Shown one piece after another: positions 10,088 through 58,170 of a stretch of DNA of 64,000 nucleotides; within the stretch, counting starts at the first letter, position 1; the number at the start of each line of letters is the position of its first letter. The notes beneath the pieces were generated by a model. The model was given only the letters and a program-made list of their open reading frames with translations, had not been told where the DNA came from and did no database searches. The stretch spans positions 1,819,501 to 1,883,500 of the forward strand of contig CM073331.1 of assembly GCA_037043015.1 (NCBI GenBank). The letters run 5' to 3'. This DNA comes from Bryum argenteum. Its lineage: Eukaryota > Streptophyta > Bryopsida > Bryales > Bryaceae. The translations under genes and the position numbers were made by a program.

Positions 10088-11894
10088 ATGGCTTTTCTAC
10101 GACGTGGTTTGGTTATGGTGGCATTCATGTTTAGTTTGATGAGATTGGCCACCATTGCAGGAGCTCAAAACTCGATAGGCGTCAACTACGGTCGAGTGGC
10201 GGACAACCTGCCTTCAGCAGCCCAAGTGGTCTCACTCTTACAATCACGATCCGTGAAGCATGTCCGAATCTACGACACTGATGCCACCGTGCTCAACGCG
10301 TTCGGAAACTCTGGCATCGACGTCGGCGTCACCATTCCTAACAAAGAAGTTGCTGGGCTCGCTGACAGGTAATCACTTCTCTTGATTACTTTCCAAATCG
10401 GGCTTGAATGCAATGTGTGATCGTGCTACCATATGGTTCCTATGCAACACTTACAATATGCTGGTTTTAGCTGAGATCAGATAGTTGTATCTTTGTAGTT
10501 GCGTGGTCGCAAAGAGTATTAGATAGTGGTTAAAGTGATACAGGTGTAGTTGCTAATCTTCGAGGTGCCAATAAGCAGGATGCTCATTTTCAGATCGATT
10601 CCTTGAGCGTTTACTATTAGTGTATACCCCGTCTTCACGAGTATCTTGTAGCAGATTGACACTAGAATGTCACTCATGAACAGGGTAATCATCTTTGGAA
10701 CAAAAGCAGAGGCATTGTTATATTGAACGGTTTGCAATTAACGGTCGTAGTTACACTCTGATTTTGGAGGACAAGACAATAGACCACGGGGCAGAATGTC
10801 TTAAAATGATCAATTTAGCACTTTGACACTCTATTTTGAAACCGATTCAAGTGACCCGAGACCTGGAAGTCACTGAAATTTAGCAATATTGGTGATTGAT
10901 AAGTGAGATCTGGTACTGTGCAGTGCGGCAGCGGCTGATCAGTGGGTGGCGAACAACATTATCCGTTATGGATCCACCAATTTCGCCACCATCGCCGTGG
11001 GGAACGAGGTTCTGGACGACCAGAGTTTCGACCGATCGAAGCTGGTGCCCGCCATGCGGAATGTGCAGCAGTCGCTGCAGAACAGAGGCCGCTCCTCCAT
11101 CAAGGTGTCCACGCCGCTCTCCATGAACAACCTGCTCGCTTCTCCTGGCTTCCCTCCCTCCTCCGGCACTTTCCGCCCTGAGGTCACTGATTTGCTCCGC
11201 TCCATACTCGCGTTTCTCTCCCAGGTTATCTCAAGAGCCATTTCCCAGCCATTGTTGCTTGTTTTCAGGTTTGACACCTCTTGTAAATGAAAAGCATACC
11301 TCGGTGAGTGTTGAAGTACCTTACGGTTTGTGTTTTAATTTGCAGACCAACTCTGTGTTCATGATCAATGTATACCCGTACTTTTCATACCGAGACAACC
11401 GTGGTGTGGACATCAAGCTGGACTACGCATTGGGGAATCCGAGCGCGGCGCCGGTGACAGACTCGGGCAATGGCCTAGTGTACCACAACATATTTGATGC
11501 GATGCTGGACACGGTGCTGGCCGCCATGACGAGGGTGGGCTATGGCAATGTGCCCTTTCTCATCACGGAGTCGGGATGGCCGTCGGGTCCCAACAGCGAG
11601 TTCGGGGCGTCGGTGCAGAATGCACAGAGCTACAACACCAACCTGGTGAGGCATGTGCTTGGGAGCTCCGGTACTCCGCGGCGGCCTGGCAGCGGCCGCA
11701 TCCCCACATTCATCTTTGCGCTTTTCAACGAGAATAAGAAGGGTGGGAATCCTATAGAGCAGAACTTTGGTTTGTATTACCCCAATCAGACCCCTGTTTA
11801 CAACGTCCCGCTCACTGTCAGTTCTCATTTATGCCTCTGCATCGACAAGCATGGCTCCACTGTAGAATCCACTGAACGTGTTGCCGCCTTCTAG
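10088..11894 (+). CDS. Glucan endo-1,3-beta-glucosidase, GH17 (PR-2 family), secreted
   Basis: Hydrolyses beta-1,3-glucan (callose or fungal wall). Exons: 10088-10368, 10924-11224, 11346-11894. The start at 10088 gives a signal peptide (LVMVAFMFSLMRLATIAGA) directly before the mature N terminus IGVNYGRVADNLPSA typical of GH17. Catalytic landmarks are the proton donor Glu in IAVGNEVL and the nucleophile Glu in TESGWPSG; FALFNENKKGG is also present. The C terminus is uncertain: reading straight on gives a stop at 11892-11894, whereas splicing a 49-nt GT..AG intron (11817-11865) gives a Pro/Ser-rich end stopping at 11977-11979. No X8 or clear GPI signal is seen. It is divergent from the thaumatin-like gene. 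Confidence 0.9.
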
Positions 11895-23795: not shown

Positions 23796-26700
23796 ATGGC
23801 GGCCGCAAGCGCGCCCATCACCATGAAGGAGGCTCTCACGGTCCGGCTCCGATCTTGCCGCTTATTGCTCCATGTCCCTTAGGGTTTGCAGGATCTGTAA
23901 AATGCGGGAGCTCTTGCGATGTGGGGAGTACTTTTTGGTGCTTTTTTCAGGTTTTGGTGTTTGTTGACAGTGTGTTGGTGTGTAATGCAGCTGACGAGCC
24001 TCGGGATAAATCAACAATTTGTCACTTTCACACATGTGACGATGGAATCCGAGAAGTATATTTGCGTGCGGGAAACTTCGCCTCAAAATAGTGTCGTGAT
24101 TATTGACATGTCCACGCCGAATCAGCCCCTGCGTCGCCCGATCACTGCTGACTCCGCCTTGATGAATCCTACCAGCCGTGTCCTCGCGCTTAAAGGTACG
24201 CTCTCTTTTGCCATTTTGCCTGATCGATGGACACAATGACTAGGGCAATAGGCAGGTGATCGCAAAACGGCAGGTCGTGATGGAGATCTATTGCCAGGGA
24301 AACTTTAGTTGCGCATGTTGAGGACAGAACGATCGTTAAATGGACTTGTTGATCAACTTAGATTAGCTGAAAAATAATGGTTAAAACCGCCATTTTAGTC
24401 AAGGTCGGACTAGTTCGAGTGCTCGCGGATTGTTGAGGCGGGAAATGCGTTGCGACGTTTAGTTCGATCTTGTGGAGAAATTTTACTCAGGATTATGGAG
24501 ACATCGTAGCTGCTAGTAGAACCACGAGTTTGTTGCAGATAAGACTTTTATAAAAAAACTGTCATCGTAGGTTCGTATGAACGAGCTTACTTCTGATTGA
24601 CAACGAGTATGTCGGGAAAATGGTAGTTCATTTTTAATTAGATGGTATTGACTTCAGGAGATGTATGGAAGATTCATACTAAAAATAGTAATATAGAGGT
24701 GGTGGTTTCATGTGCCTCTCCATTCATCAGTTTACGTTATTTCGGTTACGCCTCAATCTGAAGCAGAGGCGAAAGTTACTCTTGACCTTTCTGCAGTGGT
24801 TTTGTCCAAATTCACCTACTACATGAAGATGTTGTTAATGATTACATGCTGTGTCTCCTCTTTGTTTCAGCTCAAATACCTGGTAGCACGCAAGATCACC
24901 TCCAAATCTTTAACATTGAATTGAAAGCCAAGATGAAATCTTATCAAATGCCAGAGCAGGTGAGAATGTACCCTTAGTGCTTTAGTCACTGCTGCTCGTA
25001 TAACTATGCATTAATTCGGAAGATGGAACTGACTTCATAAGTTAAGCCAGAGCAAGTTTTCTGCCTCCAAGCCGCTCCTTACCGTGGCATTCTCTATTAG
25101 GTGGTCTTTTGGAAGTGGATTACTCCAAGGTTATTGGGACTTGTGACTCAAACGTCAGTTTATCACTGGACAATAGAAGGTACGCGCTATGTCTGTCATG
25201 TTTGAGGTTTGAGATTGTTGTTTGTGAGGAGGTGCTTAGGTGTATACCAACAACGTCGGACTGAGTGTTCAAGTAGTTATACCACTTGGTGTGGCTTGGA
25301 CGTGGTTCATCCATTTACTTTGTGCATCATATATTGAGGCTCCTATCACCTATGCTTGTCCCAGGGGAATCTGAGCCAGTGAAGATGTTTGAGAGGACTG
25401 CAAACTTGACTGGCAACCAAATCATTAACTATAGATGCGATCCCTCAGAGAAGTGGCTAGTGCTGATTGGCATTGCTCCTGGAGCTCCTGAGGTACGTAC
25501 GATGTTTCGACCATAGCCTCTTTCGTAATGAAGAGCTGAGCGGCGGATCAAGAGAAGCTGATGGTCATTTATTAAGTTGTTTATCTACTGTGTCAAATTT
25601 GTTTTGGCTTAGTACTTGACTCACACTCTTACGTGTCTGTATTCCAGCGCCCCCAACTTGTGAAGGGAAACATGCAGCTATTCTCAGTTGACCAGCAGAG
25701 AAGTCAGGCTCTTGAAGCTCATGCTGCTTCATTTGCCACTTACCAGGTGAACTAGTTTTCATTTGAGGGTTTAGGTGTGATAGCTGTTTAGTAGTCATTG
25801 GTTTTTCCATTCTCATTTGCGGCATTCAATTTTGGAGCTGTGTCATGAGTTCTGCAGGTTCGAGGATCCAATAGTCCTTCCCTTCTCATTTCTTTTGCCA
25901 CAAAGTGTTTCGTCGGAGCTCAACTAGTGTCAAAGTTATATGTCATTGGGCTGGGGGCTTCGCCAGGTTTGTGTCGCTTCTTGGATCTCATGTGAATGGA
26001 AACCTTGTGATCAACCCAGGTGGTCGGAAATGATTCTCCATCTCTACTAATTGCATTCTCAACAAAATCTATCTCAGCTGGACAGCTTACATCCAAGCTG
26101 CATGTGATTGAGCTAGGTGCTCAGCCAGGTTGGTTCGACCTGTCTGATCTGCCTTCAGACCCTATGAATTTTTGCACCATTTGATTGTGCAACTTCTCTT
26201 ACGTATTCATTGAAAAGAGACAGATTGCTCTTTATGATGCTTTTGCCTTTTATCGCCTCTTACTTGTTGTGTTGCTGCTGCTGGTACTGGGTAGAGATAG
26301 ACGTTCTCTGACGTACTATCAGATCTAACCAGCGCGCTATCGGGTACAATCGGCAGTACGCGGATTGTTTTTGATCCTGGTATGCAAACTCACGCAGACT
26401 TCGATGTGTTCTTTTGCAGGAAAACCGGGTTTCTCCAAGAAAGCGGCAGATCTTTTCTTTCCGCCCGATTTTGCTGATGATTTCCCCGTCGCAATGCAGG
26501 TCGAGAAAAATTCCAGTTTTCCTCCTTACCTTGTCATCCAGTATTGTGTTCTTTGACATAGCTCATGAAAATATAGCTATGTTTTGCTGATTACTCGGTT
26601 TCGATTTTGGCCAACAGATTTCAGTGAAGTATGGACTCATTTATGTAATTACAAAGCTTGGCCTTCTATTTGTCTACGACCTGGAAACTGCAACAGCTGT

Positions 26701-29700
26701 GTACAGAAACCGAATTAGTCCAGATCCTATTTTCTTGACAACCGATGCTCCGCAAGTGGGTGGGTTTTATGCTGTTAATCGCCGGGGACAAGTCCTCCTT
26801 GCGACTGTCAACGAGTCTACAATTGTTCCTTTTGTTAGCAACCAGGTATACACAGTCATTTCATCAAAGACCCTAGATTTTCTGTACTTCAACTTGATCT
26901 TGATCTTGTTCTGCATAATTTGACATACGACAATGGATCGCCACACATGAACTCGACAACCAGCTCATTCATACCCTTCCCTAACTTAGAGTGCCAATCT
27001 TTTCTTCAGTTGAATAACTTGGAGCTTGCCGTGAACCTTGCAAGACGAGGAAACTTGCCTGGAGCAGAGGGATTGGTATGTTTCACTACCATCAGTTTAC
27101 CAATACTTCCATATGTTTCGCTTGTCAATCCTGTGATGTAAACCAATGGTTAAGTACAGGTTTTTCTGTTATGACGCTGAGGCTTGTCGATGCAACTTAG
27201 TCCGTTCACCATCGATTATAACTGTTGTTGCCATCTAGTCTTATCATGTACTCTGTTTGTTTGAGAATGTTGCCGGACGTTTTTGTTGAGCGGTTGTTGA
27301 TGGTGAGACAAATGGCCATCTAGACACAGTGAAGTCTCACTTAATAGCATTGGTTAACTTGTTCGCAGGTTGTACAACGCTTTCAAGATTTATTCTCCCA
27401 GATGAAGTACAAGGAAGCAGCAGACCTTGCAGCAGAGTCACCGCAAGGCATTCTCCGAACCCCGGATACAGTCGCAAAGTTTCAAAGTGTTCCAGTGCAG
27501 CCAGGACAAACATCACCCCTATTGCAGTACTTCGGGACCTTATTGACGAAGGGGAAGCTGAATATGTTCGAGTCATTGGAGCTTTCACGACTTGTGGTGA
27601 ATCAGAACAAAAAGAATTTGCTGGAGAATTGGCTGGCAGAGGACAAGCTGGAATGTAGCGAAGAGCTGGGAGATCTTGTTAAGACCGTGGACAATGACAT
27701 GGCACTTAAGATCTACATCAAGGCCAGGGCTACTCCAAAGGTGGTGGCAGCTTTTGCTGAGCGTGGCGAGTTTGACAAGATTTTAATTTACTCGAAGCAG
27801 GTTGGGTACACTCCGGATTACCTTTTCCTGCTGCAGTCAATCCTGCGATCAGACCCTCAGGCTGCTGTAAACTTCGCTCTCATGATGTCCCAACTCGAAG
27901 GTGGTTGCCCAGTTGACTACAATATTATCACAGACTTGTTTCTCCAGCGAAACATGATCCGGGAGGCAACTGCTTTTCTTTTGGATGTTTTGAAGCCCAA
28001 TCTTCCCGAGCAAGCTTTACTCCAGACCAAGGTTCTAGAAATCAATCTCGTCACGTTTCCAAATGTGGCTGACGCAATTTTGGCGAACGGAATGTTCAGC
28101 CATTATGACCGCCCTCGAGTTGCTCAACTTTGTGAGAAAGCTGGTCTTTACATGCGTGCTCTTCAGCATTATACGGAGTTGAATGATATCAAGCGCATTG
28201 TTATCAACACCCATGCTATCGACCCACAGGCTCTCGTTGAGTTTTTCGGCACCCTATCAAAGGAATGGGCCTTGGACTGCATGAAGGAGTTGCTGCAGGT
28301 GAACATGCGTGGAAACCTCCAGATCATAGTACAGGTGGCCAAGGAATACGCAGAGCAGTTGGGTGTTGATGCATGTGTGAAGCTATTTGAGAATTTCAAG
28401 TCTTTCGAGGGTTTGTACTTCTTCCTTGGAGCTTATTTGAGTTCAAGCGAGGATCCCGAAATCCACTACAAGTACATCGAGGCAGCTGCCAAGACCGGTC
28501 AAATCAAAGAAGTTGAGCGTGTTACAAGGGAGTCCAATTTCTATCCTCCCGAGAGGACCAAGAACTTCTTGATGGAATCCAAGCTCCCAGACGCGAGGCC
28601 TCTTATCAATGTCTGTGATCGTCATGGTTTCGTGCCAGACCTTACTCACTACCTTTATGTCAACAACATGCTTCGTTACATCGAAGGTTATGTGCAGAAG
28701 GTTAACCCCCAAAACGCACCCTTGGTGGTGGGACAACTGTTGGACGATGACTGTCCTGAGGACTTCATTAAGGGATTGATTTTATCTGTACGCTCTCTGC
28801 TCCCAGTGGAGCCATTGGTACTTGAGTGTGAGAAGAGGAACCGTCTCAGGCTGCTGACACAGTTCTTGGAGCACCTTGTTAGCGAAGGTAGTCAAGATGT
28901 GCATGTGCACAATGCCCTGGGTAAAATCATCATCGACACCAACAACAACCCTGAACATTTTCTCACTACCAATCCCTACTACGACTCGAAAGTCGTCGGC
29001 AAGTACTGCGAGAAGCGCGATCCTACACTCGCTGTGGTTGCATACAGACGTGGACAATGTGACGATGAGCTTGTTGAGGTTACCAACAAGAATTCCCTCT
29101 TCAAGCTTCAGGCCAGGTAAACGCAATTCCTCATTTTCTTCCCATTACTTTCAGATATTCTATAATGAAGAGTTCTCTAATGACCCGCTCCAAAGTTGAT
29201 CTTGACTGATGTTAAGTATCAAATGATTGGTTTCACTTTCATTCATTTTTGCTGATCAAGCATGTATTTGTGTTTCTCCCAGGTATGTGGTGGAGCGCAT
29301 GGAGCCGGACTTGTGGTTGAAGGTTCTGAGCGAAGAAAACACATGCAGAAGACAGTTGATTGATCAGGTCGTCTCTACTGCTCTTCCGGAGAGCAAGAGC
29401 CCAGAGCAGGTGTCGGCCACGGTCAAGGCTTTCATGACAGCAGATCTGCCGCATGAGCTTATCGAGTTGCTGGAGAAGATTGTTCTCCAGAACTCAGCCT
29501 TCAGTGGCAACCCGAACTTACAGAACTTGCTCATCCTCACAGCAATCAAGGCTGACACTACCCGTGTCATGGATTACATTCACCGTTTGGACAACTTCGA
29601 TGGTCCTGCAGTGGGTGAGATTGCAGTGGGTGCAGAGCTCTTCGAGGAGGCGTTTGCAATTTTCAAGAAGTTCAACCTGAACGTGCAAGCTGTGAATGTC

Positions 29701-32085
29701 CTGCTGGACAACATTCGCAACATCGACCGTGCCGTGGAGTTCGCAGCCCGCGTCGAAGAGGATGAGGTTTGGAGCCAGGTCGGTAAGGCTCAGTTGAGGG
29801 AAGGATTGGTCAGCGATGCCATTGAGTCCTTCATCAAGGCTAATGACGCCACTCAATACAATGAGGTTATCGATGTTGCGTCTGGTGTCCGGGCATACGA
29901 GGATCTCGTCAAGTACTTGAACATGGTCCGCAAGAAGGTTAAGGAGGCGAAGGTCGATTCCGAGTTGATCTTTGCATATGCCAAACTTAACCGATTGGAT
30001 GACATTGAGGAGTTCATTGTCACCCCCAACCTTGCGAACTTGCAAACTGTCGGAGATCGTCTGTTTGATGAAGAGTTGTACGAAGCTGCCAAAATCATCT
30101 TCACGCACATCTCCAACTGGGCTAGACTTGCCAGCACTCTTGTTAAGCTTCACCAGTTCCAAGCTGCTGTGGATGCCGCCAGGAAGGCTAACAGTGCGCG
30201 GACATGGAAGGAAGTCTGCTTCGCTTGCGTGGATGCCGAGGAATTCCGTCTTGCCCAAATCTGCGGTCTCAATGTCATTGTCCAGGTATGGATTATCTCT
30301 TGATGTCTCACTCGTCTATTTGACAACCTGGTTATCCTTTCGTACTTTGCAATGGCTTTCCGTGAACGGCCATACCTTGAGTGTTTCAACATCCATTACC
30401 TTATACAGAACTAACAGGTTGTCGTTGTGTAGCGAAAATATTACTATATTATGCATGTGCCTTTCTATCTGGAAATGTAGGAGCAAGTATCTGACTAGGA
30501 TACCGTTAACTTGTGTGCAGGTTGATGATTTGGAAGAGGTCAGTGAATACTACCAAAACAGGGGTCGGTTCGATGAGCTCATCTCGCTTATGGAGAGTGG
30601 GCTGGGTTTAGAGCGTGCTCACATGGGTATCTTCACAGAGCTGGGCACATTGTACGCCAGATATCGACCAGAGAAGCTCATGGAGCATCTCAAGCTCTTC
30701 GTCACCCGTATCAACATCCCCAAGCTCATTCGTGTATGCGACGAGCAGCAACACTGGAAGGAACTCACTTACTTATACATCGCATATGATGAGTTTGACA
30801 ACGCCGCTGCAACCATGATGAGCCATTCTCCCGAGGCATGGGAGCATATGCAATTCAAGGATGTTGCTGTCAAGGTTGCGAACGTGGAGCTTTACTACAA
30901 GGCTGTGTATTTCTACCTCGAGGAGTATCCCGAGCTCATTAACGACTTGCTCAATGTCTTGGCTGCTCGCGTTGATCACACACGAGTTGTGGATATTATG
31001 CGTAAGGCTGGACACCTCCCACTGGTGAAGCCATATATGGTGGCGGTACAAAGCGCCAACAATGCTGCAGTTAACGAGGCTTTGAACAATCTATACATTG
31101 AAGAGGAGGATTATGAGCGGCTTAGGGAGTCTATTGATATGTACGATAACTTCGACCAGATCACAATGGCACAAAGGGTAATTTTTCTGACCCCGACTTT
31201 CGTATCGAACATTCTTTGTCTTTTCGATATGAGTATTGATAGTCTGTATTCTTCCACAGATCGAGAAGCACGAGCTTTTGGAAATGCGCCGAGTTGGAGC
31301 CTACATTTACAAGAGAGCCGGCAGATGGAAACAATCTGTGGCTTTGTCTAAGAAGGACAACTTATACAAAGATGCTATGGAGACGTGCTCGCAGTCAGGC
31401 GATCGTGAACTTGCTGAGGAACTGCTCACGTTCTTCGTGGACAAGGTCAGTACTGATTTTCTTTCAGCACTTGGACTCTCTTATGTTTGCTTTTGTAACC
31501 TTCTCTAATATCGTTTTGTAATGATGCACAGGGCAAGAAAGAGTGCTTCGCTGCTTGCTTGTACACTTGCTACGACCTCATTCGTGCCGATGTTGCGGTT
31601 GAGTTGGCATGGATGCATGGCATGATGGACTTCGCTGTACCATACTTGCTGCAGGTGCGAAGCCTTTCCAAATCTTATCCTTTCACTTGTTATCATGGTT
31701 GCTGATTCTAACATTCTCTACAATTTGGCTCTGCAGTTCTTGCGTGAGTACTCCACCAAGGTCGATGATTTGGTGAAAGACAAATTAGAAGCAAACGAAG
31801 AGAAGAAGTCGAAGGAGCAAGAGGAGAAGGAAGTAGTCGCTCAGTCGGTAAGATTCTTGCTTCCTAACGTTACTTCGACTAGTTTTCTGCAGTTTTATGA
31901 TTTCTGACACTATTCGTTTTCTGCAGAACATGTACGCTCAGCTGCTGCCTCTAGCGCTACCTGCACCTCCAGTTGCTGGAATGCCAGGTATGGGAGGAGG
32001 TATGCCCGGAATGGGAGGAGGCATGCCAGGATACGGAATGCCACCAATGTCAGGTTATGGCATGCCTGCCATGAGTGGGTTCTAG
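23796..32085 (+). CDS. CHC: Clathrin heavy chain (17 exons, plus one alternative exon)
   Basis: Structural coat protein of clathrin vesicles; three heavy chains form the triskelion acting at plasma membrane, trans-Golgi and cell plate. Exons: 23796-23840, 23991-24195, 24871-24959, 25101-25179, 25365-25492, 25648-25746, alternative 25858-25966 or 26020-26128, 26420-26499, 26618-26845, 27010-27075, 27369-29116, 29283-30285, 30521-31177, 31260-31445, 31532-31654, 31737-31847, 31927-32085. Either choice gives an open frame of 1704 residues, the normal plant length. The N-terminal beta-propeller (from [20 protein letters not shown]) spans the first ten or so exons, followed by the linker and helical repeats of the leg. 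The 3' end encodes a Met/Gly/Pro-rich tail ([14 protein letters not shown]) ending MSGF. The two big exons, 1.75 and 1.0 kb, hold most of the leg. No frame defects were seen. Confidence 0.97.
25858..25966 (+). other. Alternative clathrin exon 7a
   Basis: A 109-nt exon-like segment between a TGCAG acceptor and a G/GTTTGT donor, encoding [16 protein letters not shown]... and ending LGASP. It occupies the same place, phase (0 in, 1 out) and length as exon 7b, and the two are identical at 22 of 36 aligned residues by my count. It departs from the canonical sequence at positions that 7b keeps, for example [16 protein letters not shown] in place of [16 protein letters not shown]. Only 53 nt separate it from 7b. 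Confidence 0.85.
26020..26128 (+). other. Alternative clathrin exon 7b (canonical version)
   Basis: A 109-nt segment with a CCCAG acceptor and a G/GTTGGT donor, encoding [16 protein letters not shown]... ending IELGAQP, the form expected in clathrin heavy chains. It joins in frame both to the upstream exon (..AASFATYQ) and to the downstream one ([14 protein letters not shown]). Using both 7a and 7b would add 218 nt and shift the frame. Confidence 0.9.
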
Positions 32086-34446: not shown

Positions 34447-37400
34447 ATGGCGAAGTGTGCGGCGAATTACGGACCTCTGACGCCCATTACATTCCTGGAG
34501 CGCACAGCCGCGCTTTACCCCGAGCGCACTTCGATTATCTACGGCGATCTGCAATGGACGTGGGCGCAGACGTTCGATCGATGCCGCCGTCTTGCTTCCA
34601 AAGTCTCGCAGCTCGTCGACGTCGGCCAGACGGTTAGCTCCCTCTTCTTCTTCTTCCCTTGCTCTCAAATTCTTCAATTAGGGTTCCATTCTAGCAATCA
34701 AATTTCACTCATGTGCAGATTGTTGTAAGCATCTCAAACCGTTTGGAGGAACTAGTACAGTGTTCATCCTGAAAGGAGTTAGTAGTCAAAGGAGTTAGTA
34801 GTCATTTATCAATCATGGCTATCTGACTAGGTAGGAATGAGTATACGCTAGGGAGAGGGGTCGGTAGGGAATGATGATCACAGCTTTCTCTTTTGAGAAA
34901 CCCATTCACAAAAGAGAAGAACACTGACAATGGTGTAAGAATTTCAATTGAGGTTGGCATGTCTGATAGTGTTTTGCCTCGAGAGGGATTGGCAGTCAAT
35001 GGCGATCAAAATTCACTCTCATGTACAAAAATTCACTCATGTACTCACAGACATTGTTGTAGGAATGTTTGCTATCTCTTACGTACTATTGACTAAGTAA
35101 GAACTATTATGTTGTTCACTTTAATAGTTCTTCATCATAGAGTAGGTCTAATCGTCAAGGATAGGTTGAAAAAGACGGTATCCATACCGACCTTGCAGTT
35201 TAAAAAAGTATTAGCAATCAAATCTCACTCCTTTGCGGAACCCATTTGAAATTGAAATTGAAATGTTTCCAGTCGCTAGCATAATGTTCAAGGTTGGTAG
35301 TCCTACACTATCAGTATTCTGATATGATGCACATCCAAGGATAGGTTGGAAAAGTACACTATTCTTGCAAGCTTGGAGTTCTTCTTCTCCTTTATCACTG
35401 TTATGGCGCTTTGCAGGTATCAGTGCTCTCCCCGAACTCACCAGCAGTATACGAGCTCAACTTCGGCGTGCCAATGGCAGGAGCAGTGCTCAACTCGATC
35501 AACTCCCGTCTCGACGCACGAACAATCTCCGTTCTCCTGGCCCACAGCGAAACCAAACTCCTGTTCGTGGACTCGCAGTACATGCAGGTGGTGCAGGAGG
35601 CGCTCACCATGTGGTTAGGAGGATCGACTGGTTGGAAGCCGCACATCGTGGTGATCGAGGATCGAGTCGATGCTGGGAAGATTAGTTTCAAGACTTTCTT
35701 GCCTGGATGGGGCGTGCTGGTTGAGTACGAGGAGGTGATTCAGAGTGGGGAACCGGGGTTTGCGATACGGTGGCCGAACGATGATTGGGATACTATTGCT
35801 TTGAATTATACGAGTGGGACTACTTCGAGACCGAAAGGCGTGCTTTATCACCACAGGTACCTGCCCATCCTTTGTTCGAACCTTCATAGTCGACAGCGTT
35901 GCAGTCACATTGTGTGGATTGTATTGTAGTACGACTGTTTGGGTCATTCCGTACAGATCCTATTGTATTCAAAAGTTTTTCTTCTAGTGTCTCAAGCCAG
36001 ATTGTGAGGATAGCTTGGTGACATTTCCTAGACTGTGATGTTTTTGGTGGTGCTTGAATCATTGTGGACAAGTAGTACCGGATAAGTTTTCTTCTGATGT
36101 CTGCAGCGGGTGTGGATTGTCCAGACATTGATGATGCATGGATGTTTCTAGTGGTGCTTGAATTTGATTTGATGGTTTTTCTTCTGGAGTCTAATGCCAA
36201 ATTGTGAGGACAGCTTGGTGTGATTGCTTGGGCATTGATGATGCTCTGGTGGTGCTTGAGTCATTGCGGACAAGTCATACCAGGCAGTCTTTCTCATAGT
36301 GTGTATAGCCAGATTGTGAGAAATCTGGTGTGATTGCTCGGACATTGATGCATGGATGTTGTCCTTCAATATAATGTTGTTATAGTCATTGTTTACAAGT
36401 AGCACCGGAAGGTCTTTTCTTCTAGTGTCTACAGTCAGATTATGTGAGTACCCGGGTGTAATTAATCCGATGGATGTTTGCTGCTGCTGCAGGGGAGCAT
36501 ACCTGTGCCCACTAATAGCAGTCCAATGGTGGAACATGCTCCCTCACTCCGTCTACCTGTGGACACTCCCCATGTTCCACTGCAACGGCTGGTGCTTCAC
36601 CTGGGGAATCGCCGCCATCTCCGGCACAAACGTCATTATCCGCGCAGTCGAGCCCAAAGCGATCTTCGACGCCATCTCCCGTCACAAAGTCACCCATCTC
36701 TGCGGGGCGCCAGTCGTCCTCAACACCATCGCCAACGCTCCACACTCCCTCCCCAACAATCACAAAGTCGCCGTCATCACAGGAGGGGCGCCTCCTCCAC
36801 CCTCAGTCCTGTCCAGTATGGAGGAGAAGGGCTTCGATGTTACCCACTCGTATGGCTTAACGGAGACTTACGGCCCTGCTCTTGTATGCACTTGGAAACC
36901 GGAGTTTGAGAAGTTTCCGCTTGAGGAGCGGGCGAAGATTAAAGCGAGACAAGGGTTGGCGCATGTGGGACTTCAGGAAGTTGATGTTTTGGATTCGAGG
37001 ATGAATCCTGTTGCAAGAGATGGGAAGCAGATTGGGGAGATTATGGTTCGGGGAAGTACTGTTATGAAGGGATACTTTCGTGATGAGGAGGCTACCAGGT
37101 ATGTGGTGTTTTTTTCAACTGACAGAAAAGACTCTCACCATTTTGCGACAGAAGCTCCAAGATTATCTGAACATAAGAGTAAACGAAATCAATGCTTGCC
37201 GAAACTATCAATGAATGCTTACAATGTCTATTTTGACTGCACTTTTGCAGGCAAGCCTTCGAGGGAGGCTGGTTCCACACAGGCGACCTCGGAGTAGTCC
37301 ACCCGGACAACTACATCGAAGTGAAAGACCGCTCCAAGGACATAATCATCTCCGGAGGCGAAAACATCAGCTCAATCGAGATCGAATCCATCCTCTTCAA

Positions 37401-40676: not shown

Positions 40677-40760
40677 GTCAGCATGGCCGAGTGGTCTAAG
40701 GCGCCAGACTCAAGTTCTGGTCTTCGTAAGGGGGCGTGGGTTCGAACCCCACTGCTGACA
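40677..40760 (+). tRNA. trnL-CAA: tRNA-Leu (CAA)
   Basis: Nuclear class II tRNA of 84 nt. The acceptor stem GTCAGCA pairs with TGCTGAC, the anticodon stem CCAGA/TCTGG encloses loop CTCAAGT (anticodon CAA), there is a long variable arm (CTTCGTAAGGGG region), and the T arm contains GGTTCGAACCC. No intron. A run of seven T about 17 bp after the gene is a Pol III terminator. Internal A (TGGCCGAGTGG) and B boxes are intact. Confidence 0.96.
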
Positions 40761-50186: not shown

Positions 50187-50794
50187 GCACACAAACATCC
50201 ATGGATTTTTTCACTTATGCTTTGGATACAGCTTTCATAAGAGCAATAACATCAGTTCTTTCTCAGTTACTCCAGTTGGCTTTTCGTGCCGCTCTAGACA
50301 GTCATGGTTCAAAGGAGTTTGTTGCCATCTTCTTCGGAAGGGAGTTCGTCCACATGTTCTTCGGAAGAATGTTACTGGGAATCATGTTCCTCGGAATCAT
50401 GTATTTCTGAAGCATGTTCTTCGGAAGCATGTTCCTCGGAAGCATATTCCTCGGAATCATGTTTTCCTGAAGCATGTTCTTCGGAAGCATGTCCTTCGGA
50501 AGCAAGGGATGAGATCCCACATTCGTTTGAGTGCCCGATCTGCACGGAGATCCCAACGAACTCAGTTGCAACCTCGTGTGGTCATGTGTTCTGCTGGAGC
50601 TGCATGTACCAGTGGATCCAAAACGGACCCAAATCATGCCCAGCATGCAGAAAGATTGGCTTCAAGATTCTTCCTCTCGGTAAAGCAACTGATAGCGACA
50701 ATAGTATTCCAAGGCGTCCGTCTAAACGTCCGGCGATATTCTTTCCCGGCAAGAAGCGAGCTCGAGATGAACGTGAGGACACTCGATATTGTAA

Positions 50795-51191
50795 GGGCGC
50801 ACTCACATGTGAGACCCGACCCCATAATTTCACTGCAGCTACCCATATTTTTTGAAGGGTCACTTTTCAGGGTGAACATTACGGGTCACTTCCATGTTCA
50901 TTCATGATGTTATAAATTAGTGTGTTCTTTTGTGGCTTATTCCCTGACAATGTAAACTTAGCTAAGTTCCATGCTAAGTTTACATTGTCAGGGAATAAGC
51001 CACAAAAGAACACACTAATTTATAAATCGGGTTCTATATTAATTTCAAGGGCTTGCCACCTTCCCTTGGCAAGCCCGAATAATAATACGGGAGCCCGTGA
51101 TTATCATGTTGGGTTGGGGAGCATGTGAGTGGCTTACTTTTCTGAGACCCGATCCATTTTACGGGGTCGGGTCTCACATGTGACTGTGCCC
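50795..51191. mobile_element. PIF/Harbinger-like MITE inside RING gene (397 bp)
   Basis: Flanked by TAA on both sides (50792-50794, 51192-51194). Terminal inverted repeats of 29 bp or more start GGGC(G/A)CA(C/G)TCACATGTG and continue AGACCCGACCCC. A 3-bp TAA duplication with GGGC ends fits PIF/Harbinger. The centre holds a perfect 52-bp palindrome. No coding capacity. Confidence 0.72.
50911..51024. repeat. Perfect 52-bp inverted repeat with 10-bp spacer
   Basis: Arm 50911-50962 (starts TATAAATTAGTGTG) and arm 50973-51024 are exact reverse complements, separated by TAAGTTCCAT. It lies in the centre of the 397-bp element and could be a second, nested foldback element or the element's own core. 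Transcripts would form a long hairpin. Confidence 0.9.
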
Positions 51192-56946: not shown

Positions 56947-58170
56947 TTAATCCGATTCTTCTTCATCATCGTCTTTACGACTTTGGCGGCGTAAGTAAGA
57001 AGGTGGTCCTCGAGAAGATTCTCCAAACAAGTACGTTTGCCTAAAGTTTCTTTCGGCCTCGATTACATTCAATGTATTCCCGCCGACTTAGAAGTGTGGC
57101 TTGTTGCGGATCTTGTTGGTACCTCGCCTCTTCGTCCTCTCGGGAGATAGATAAGGTCTTTGAAGGCGGTCGTTACTTCCGTATGCATTCGACCATATCC
57201 ATAATTTGTGTAGCCAACAATGTCCGATCTTCTATCATATTGACCTCCATACTCGTATGTTTCCTTTGGGTGTGATGGCCTACGGTACTCGGGACTTCGA
57301 ATGTTGTACCGTATTGGTTCCCACGATTGTATGGGTTTATAGGATGAGTTGGGCTTGAGTTGCATTGAGCATTGGATCCGCTACCCTGCTCACCTCCTAA
57401 ACCATGTGTACCTCCTGTATACATTGGAGATGGGTAGTTTGAACTAGATCCACCTCTACCGTACTCGCGTTCGGCTCCGTACGTATTTTGCTGATGAGGT
57501 GGCATATAACTCACCGGAGTACCGAATTGGTGGTTTCCATGGTAATACCCCTCACTTCCTGTGCCAAAGGATACTGGTGCTTGACGATCGTCATGGTTTG
57601 AGTCTTGCTGAGTGCCCCCATATGCCCTTGGAGTTCCATGTTGTTGAAGTTGGGCATCCATATCAGCTGAACGTTCTGAATACGTAGTATAACAATCGCT
57701 TGGTCCCATCCAATTTGTGGGAATGAATCGGTTGCTGCGATCCAATAAATGCACGTTCAAACCTATCACAGTGGTCCAGTCAATGTCCTTGTGCAGGACT
57801 ATTTCAGCCCACACCATGGCCATGGTAGAATACAACATCAATTCTGGCCTTGTGTTCTTGATTCCAACTGCAATTGTGACTTCGTGATATCTGTGCGCAA
57901 AATGGTCGCTCTTGCAACTCTTCACTGGGCCTTCACGACGAGGACCATATTTCTCGCTTCGTGCCATGACCATAACTTCATGATGTGGTACATCTTCACG
58001 TACTTCTTGCACATGGTGCAATTCCAAATGTCCGCCCTCTCTCTCTCACGCCAACCCGGCTCGCAAACACGATTTGGGTCACTCCATGCTTCCCAATCCA
58101 TTTTTGGAGGGTCGCCCTTTGGTCGTGGAGACTTGGCCTCGCCCCTCGAACGTGAAAACTTCGGCGCCAT
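56947..58170 (-). pseudogene. CKKYVKMYHI-family protein gene, copy 1, frame-broken
   Basis: Unknown family. Starts MAPKFSRSRGEAKSP at 58170. A Cys/His segment, IWNCTMCKKYVKMYHIMKLW..H, is followed after one frameshift by CKSDHFAHRYHE. Then comes a hydrophobic stretch (ELMLYSTMAMVWAEIVLHKD), a WTTVIGLNVHLLDRS segment, and a long Gly/Ser/Tyr/Gln-rich low-complexity region (GGTHGLGGEQGSGS). The frame hits a TAA at 57173; in-frame and shifted continuations reach an acidic end (SRKDDDEEESD) with stop at 56949-56947. Compared with the related copy at 63.5 kb, the distance from KLW to CK.DHF is 53 nt instead of 54, a one-base deletion. It is probably dead. The Cys/His spacing suggests metal binding, which is inference. 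Confidence 0.55.

Follow-up and report, generated by a model that had tools for sequence, protein, structure and literature searches.

A clathrin heavy chain gene with two neighbouring 109-nt exons

The window, that is the whole 64,000-nt stretch of Bryum argenteum DNA analysed here, contains on its forward strand a clathrin heavy chain gene (23796..32085), which we refer to as W. The gene has 18 exons when exons 7a and 7b are both counted, its introns are GT-AG, its frame is open and its product is 1704 aa long with either of the two exons. The protein displays the N-terminal propeller and a full-length leg, with the frame intact throughout, and its N-terminal part matches a solved animal clathrin heavy chain over residues 5-374 (PDB match, E 1.5e-113). 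A comparison over 1702 codons with gene P, a paralog in the same genome, gave a dS of about 1.48, a dN of 0.038 and a dN/dS of about 0.026; W and P are both intact and are jointly under strong constraint. The possibility that W is a pseudogene was ruled out by the intact 1704-aa frame and by this low dN/dS.

The two genes differ in their introns, since 12 introns of P are absent from W. Eleven of these are consecutive and their loss leaves a single 1748-nt exon in W (27369-29116), the twelfth missing intron falling within a 657-nt exon (30521-31177). Gene C, a third heavy chain gene of this moss, has introns at 12/12 of the positions where W has none. The contiguous intron loss in W looks as if a cDNA copy had replaced the central part of the gene, and the exon pair described below lies outside the affected stretch. 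Elsewhere the window holds a piece of a glycosyl hydrolase family 17 gene (11259-11891), an AMP-binding enzyme in two ORFs (within 35411-37294), an 84-base tRNA-Leu gene with anticodon CAA (40677-40760) and a RING finger piece (50304-50852). It also holds an ORF on the reverse strand (57173-58027) that has no Pfam match and belongs to a family with at least 144 matching rows in the genome, about 100 of them, by hand count, on contig C1; we can only guess that this contig may be a repeat-rich or a sex chromosome.

Exons 7a (25858..25966) and 7b (26020..26128) of W lie on the forward strand between the constitutive exon 6 (25648..25746) and the constitutive exon that is number 9 in the gene model (26420..26499), and they are separated by a spacer of 53 nt (25967..26019). 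Each is 109 nt long, encodes 36 residues, is entered in phase 0 and left in phase 1; both are open between an AG and a GT, and 7b is of the type found in the Physcomitrium protein. The two are identical at 22/36 residues and 64/108 nt. The initial annotation had described two neighbouring 109-nt exons with AG/GT borders, matching phases, open frames and 22 of 36 residues in common, and all of this, coordinates included, was borne out. When we collected every open segment of the form AG-109 nt-GT from both strands of the window (n=76), the best non-self match of 7b was 7a (22/36) and the runner-up reached only 6/36, which rules out a duplicate by chance. The annotation had further taken the similar starts of the introns behind 7a and 7b as a sign that the flank was duplicated together with the exon. 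This part did not hold: the starts match at 6/11 bases, two of which are the obligatory GT, and those of the paralog pair match at 5/11.

The pair in a second gene and its age

When 401 bases that include the pair were searched against the moss's own genome (25 contigs, 258.8 Mb in total), one further locus came up, on contig C2, and it spans both exons. This is gene P, which is complete, with 30 exons counting both copies and a product of 1706 residues. Its counterparts of 7a and 7b (L003:4413-4521 and L003:4587-4695) are both 109 nt long and both open. In W as in P the two exons are adjacent, homologous, equal in length and phase and equipped with usable splice sites, as is characteristic of tandem-duplicated exons. 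The annotation had proposed to look for a conserved second exon in related species; within this genome, an ancient paralog (dS about 1.5) has the same tandem pair.

In a tree built from the exon DNA, the 7b copies of W and P form a cluster with a bootstrap of 99%, and the two 7a copies lie on the far side of a 68% branch. As 7b groups with 7b at 99%, the tandem exon duplication most likely preceded that of the gene, and the pair was then kept in both genes. The 7a copies of the two genes differ at 14/36 residues. Separate and recent exon duplications in W and P would be compatible with the tree drawn from the 36 amino acids alone, which does not formally reject such convergence (p-AU 0.106), but the DNA tree speaks against them on the 7b side (with the 68% branch on the 7a side), as does the identity of W7b and P7b at 88/108 nt vs only 64/108 for W7a and W7b, and we regard convergence as highly improbable.

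The heavy-chain tree computed without exon 7 places W with Physcomitrium at 100%, Sphagnum next at 100%, which makes the plant a moss closer to Physcomitrium than to Sphagnum, and supports W and P as mutual closest relatives at 69%. The Physcomitrium protein carries a 7b-type segment that shares 33/36 residues with P7b. The best-fitting trees put this segment inside the 7b group, but the alternative, only 4.3 log units worse, is not rejected (p-AU 0.166); if it is the ortholog of 7b, the exon duplication would have occurred before the Physcomitrium split. Three flanking ORFs were tested for a duplicated block around W and P and 0/3 had a match beside the gene on C2, and a genome search with the stretch upstream of W returned the self-match only.

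Gene C (G000:C4:20811800-20822500; L013, L014) is the third heavy chain gene, with 31 modelled exons that are all open, in a model whose last exon was not fetched to its end. It sits on a long branch (0.27) that splits before Sphagnum (86%); it is fast-evolving and divergent, and is a candidate for a specialised moss clathrin. Its exon 7 resembles that of W and P in position, length (109 nt) and phases, but is present as one exon only, and the donor of this exon, GTAAGT, has the top score of the 72 reference donors. We found no clear remnant of a second exon copy in the flanking introns of gene C. In intron 6 the best DNA score was 25, a value reached in 11/500 shuffles, and the best score at the protein level was 32, over a 12-residue stretch, reached in 38/500, so that gene C might hold a very decayed remnant there.

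Spacer, frames and splice sites

The spacer between 7a and 7b measures 53 nt in W and 65 nt in P. The other 72 introns of W, P and C, which are the 76 introns of the three genes minus the four that follow 7a and 7b, all have at least 77 nt, and this bears out the earlier remark that the 53-nt gap is very short. Plant introns below about 70 nt splice poorly; short introns do occasionally get spliced, which counts against exclusive use of the exons. In W the spacer contains a single YTNAY site, whose A (25990) lies 24 nt from the donor of 7a; the predicted sites of P lie 15, 21 and 26 nt from its own 7a donor. On these predictions the distance from the 7a donor to the 7b branch point is below 50 nt in both genes, which is taken as a sign of steric interference in a human exon-pair survey (PMC5740500). 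The spacer of W is 53 nt in all, and the 65-nt spacer of P may contain a non-consensus branch point further from the donor.

The initial annotation had also noted that the exon length of 109 nt is not divisible by three and that inclusion of both exons would therefore shift the frame. Indeed, the joining of 7a to 7b leads in both genes to a stop at residue 256. When both exons are skipped the stop falls at residue 245 in W and 252 in P, and retention of the spacer to a stop at residue 261 in W and 254 in P. In every case 8-22 junctions lie downstream of the early stop, and nonsense-mediated decay of such transcripts is therefore expected. By the sequence alone, joint inclusion would be prevented or unproductive in both genes. 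The pair itself, the incompatible frames and the too-short spacer, which the annotation had read as marks of mutually exclusive splicing, are all retained in the ancient paralog as well.

Two other known routes to exclusivity were considered. An incompatibility of U2 and U12 sites was discarded, as none of the donors of the 7a and 7b exons of the two genes (GTTTGT, GTTGGT, GTCTGT, GTTGGT) resembles the U12 donor. In the docking-selector RNA subtype, exemplified by Dscam, long-range intron pairings compete; our RNA folding covered the surroundings of the donors.

The acceptor of 7b in W (26005..26019, forward strand) is weak, with only 7/72 reference acceptors scoring as low, and so is that of P (8/72). 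The 7a acceptors score well, ranking 68 (W) and 49 (P) of 72, a set to which they themselves belong. All four donors are ordinary, with ranks of 36 (W) and 45 (P) for 7a and of 28 and 28 for 7b. The scores suggest that 7a may be the default exon and that 7b would need help. Yet it is 7b, and not this implied default, that changes more slowly and looks more canonical.

The donor of 7b is buried in a predicted hairpin (26121..26147, forward strand; core 26126-26142, CAGGUUG-GUU-CGACCUG), which also forms in P. When the 77 donors of W, P and C were folded in a fixed 34-base frame, the two 7b donors had the lowest minimum free energies, with -13.4 kcal/mol in W and -11.3 kcal/mol in P, the third being the donor of P exon 22 at -10.9 kcal/mol; across five frame sizes the 7b donors kept ranks 1-3. 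Against the hairpin, the mean pairing over the nine bases of the 7b donor is only third (W) and ninth (P) among the 77, and when a longer context is folded the 7a donors are nearly as paired as those of 7b (0.73-0.76 vs 0.74-0.89). At its start, the intron that follows 7b is identical between W and P at 13 of 15 bases, the highest value of the 17 shared introns (next 11).

The weak 7b acceptor and the donor hairpin, both of them present in the two genes, would also suit an expression switch, in which competition between 7a and 7b renders a share of the transcripts unproductive and has them destroyed, thereby tuning the level of clathrin, and the early stops that all three non-exclusive outcomes produce in both genes point the same way. 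Such a switch would leave nothing to keep 7a a proper propeller strand over a dS of about 1.5, and the absence of unusual residues from P7a speaks against it; we hold this explanation to be quite unlikely.

The best reading of the moss clathrin pair, and in our judgement a likely one, is that of mutually exclusive exons that arose by tandem exon duplication, which is unusual for clathrin. We propose that, in an ancestral clathrin heavy chain gene of a moss, a tandem duplication first doubled a 109-nt exon and that the whole gene was duplicated afterwards. Both exon copies would have been retained as mutually exclusive exons, each gene giving two full-length chains that differ in 36 propeller residues. 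Exclusivity would have two layers. The short spacer, with branch-point-like sites 15-26 nt from the 7a donor, would impose steric exclusion, and transcripts that contain 7a together with 7b, neither exon or a retained spacer would meet early stops and undergo nonsense-mediated decay. The choice between the exons would probably be regulated at 7b, through its weak acceptor and the conserved hairpin that holds its donor. We consider this explanation probable as a whole; from the sequence, the conservation in two genes, the frames, the lengths and the predicted hairpin we infer the splicing outcome, the decay, the regulation and the function of the protein.

The two propeller segments

The annotation had placed the encoded segment in the N-terminal propeller, and the comparison with solved animal clathrin upheld this, exon 7 corresponding to animal residues 206-237 (1utc_A numbering). 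The arrestin box is a pocket between blades 4 and 5 that is lined (PMC5182127) by W164, L183, S185, R188, V190, I194, F216, I231 and V233. F216, I231 and V233 fall within exon 7. At these three pocket positions all five moss copies have I, I and L, with no difference between 7a and 7b. The suggested consequence for adaptor binding is thus upheld in so far as the exon contributes to the arrestin box, and weakened in that either version supplies identical residues at the three pocket positions. Across both genes, 7a and 7b are consistently distinguished at two positions only (A/S and V/T), and the 7a combination at these positions occurs in 9/169 other proteins, so that the difference is an ordinary and mild one. 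The striking changes are confined to W7a and lie beside the arrestin-box pocket. A functional difference between the 7a and 7b forms is a plausible possibility.

In order to describe ordinary variation we used 169 listed proteins with 105 distinct exon 7 segments, mostly from land plants with the addition of Closterium and some unnamed transcripts. They are among the matches listed by two largely overlapping searches, one with 1721 matches and one, with residues 190-290, with 388 matches of which 120 were listed. W7b, P7a and P7b have no residue that is unseen at its column in the 105 segments. In W7a, 7/36 residues are unseen, including changes from H to Y and from E to G at invariant columns, while a leave-one-out count for 81 segments gave at most 2 unseen residues each. 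No 7a product beyond ordinary variation was present among the 169 listed proteins, the best reaching 29/36 to P7a and 23/36 to W7a; a 7a isoform would be hidden here because the protein database keeps one sequence per 90% cluster. An earlier protein search with residues 215-256 only gave 4 candidates, 0 of them significant, which reflects a failure of sensitivity and not an absence, since the later search found many land-plant clathrins.

Between W and P, pN is 0.261 and pS 0.494 over 7a, and 0.111 and 0.384 over 7b. For 7a this corresponds to about 20.5 replacement changes over 78.7 sites vs 14.5 silent changes over 29.3, a difference with a Fisher p of 0.012-0.039, depending on how halves are rounded. 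With regard to the dN/dS check that the annotation had proposed for 7a, this points, modestly, to a constrained exon, with fewer replacement than silent changes per site. Among 1493 windows of 36 codons that were drawn from the first 1600 codons and do not touch exon 7, none has a pN as high as that of 7a or of 7b; with the variable C-terminal tail included, 0.7% (7a) and 3.7% (7b) of 1601 windows do. Silent changes in 7b are scarce, with 2.5% of the 1493 overlapping windows and 0/42 non-overlapping ones as low, which is what additional splicing signals within the exon would lead one to expect.

In another reading, W7a could be a dying duplicate that drifts towards a pseudo-exon, with 7b used in practice and both P copies perhaps still working. 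Its 14/36 differences from P7a fit this, as do the 7 unseen residues, two of them at invariant columns, and the exon tree, in which almost all change falls on the W7a branch (0.575 vs about 0). In a simulation of neutral drift without indels, the open frame and the splice dinucleotides survived in 16% of runs at 0.3 substitutions per site, in 10.4% at 0.39, in 4.8% at 0.575 and in 2.5% at 0.75, and the 35 observed differences fall between 0.39 and 0.575, so that drift alone would preserve both in 4.8% to 10.4% of cases. A dying exon is harder to reconcile with the lack of any stop or indel, with a strong acceptor (68/72) and an average donor (36/72) or with the excess, per site, of silent over replacement changes reported above, and it leaves the pair of the paralog unexplained. 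We think it unlikely, although less so than an expression switch. W7a may be adapting or decaying, and the evidence for constraint on W7a alone is modest.

A fuller version of the preferred reading, which we put forward as a tentative possibility, is that of an ancient and regulated moss isoform switch, older than the Physcomitrium split and present in two genes, under the control of a hairpin over the 7b donor and with W7a diverging towards a clathrin whose adaptor-facing blade is altered beside the arrestin box.

Mutually exclusive exons in animals and plants

Mutually exclusive exon pairs are, to our knowledge, rare in plants. Tropomyosin is an animal example in which steric and frame incompatibility keep the exons exclusive. 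The moss pair shares with human mutually exclusive exons tandem homology, phase, a predicted donor-to-branch-point distance below 50 nt and a length that is not divisible by three (PMC5740500). The same study reports that more than 82% of the human clusters are conserved in mammals (PMC5740500). Unlike the animal cases, the moss pair lies in a plant gene, it concerns the clathrin heavy chain and its exclusivity is predicted from DNA sequence. Exons Ab and 3 of U2AF1 are likewise duplicated exons of unequal splice-site strength, and there it is the less favourable exon that gives the more abundant isoform (PMC5224494); U2AF1 differs in being a vertebrate gene in which repression was mapped experimentally to branch points (PMC5224494).

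The plant precedent found in the literature examined is FLM/MAF1 of Arabidopsis, where, as is proposed for the moss pair, mutually exclusive exons swap a segment involved in protein interaction (PMC3266260). FLM/MAF1 differs in that it is a MADS-box factor whose exons encode 19 and 15 residues and whose arrangement is called recent, remnants being confined to MAF2 and MAF3, in contrast with the old, equal-length pair of a housekeeping gene described here (PMC3266260). Among the open-literature titles and abstract openings listed, we found no description of a plant clathrin heavy chain with mutually exclusive exons, and the open literature returned no match for clathrin heavy chain combined with Physcomitri- and alternative splicing. 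A review of plant clathrin from 2026 has, on a term search of its text, a single mention of splice variants, which concerns the light chains of Chara, and calls it unclear what follows from the presence of several clathrin isoforms in one plant cell (PMC13176895).

Judging from the gene itself, the plant is probably able to make two forms of the clathrin heavy chain. Old and conserved mutually exclusive pairs are well known in animals, and an equally old pair in a protein central to trafficking would show that plants use this strategy too. With gene targeting being easy in mosses, the pair would then be a tractable case for asking whether clathrin itself, beyond its adaptors, is varied.
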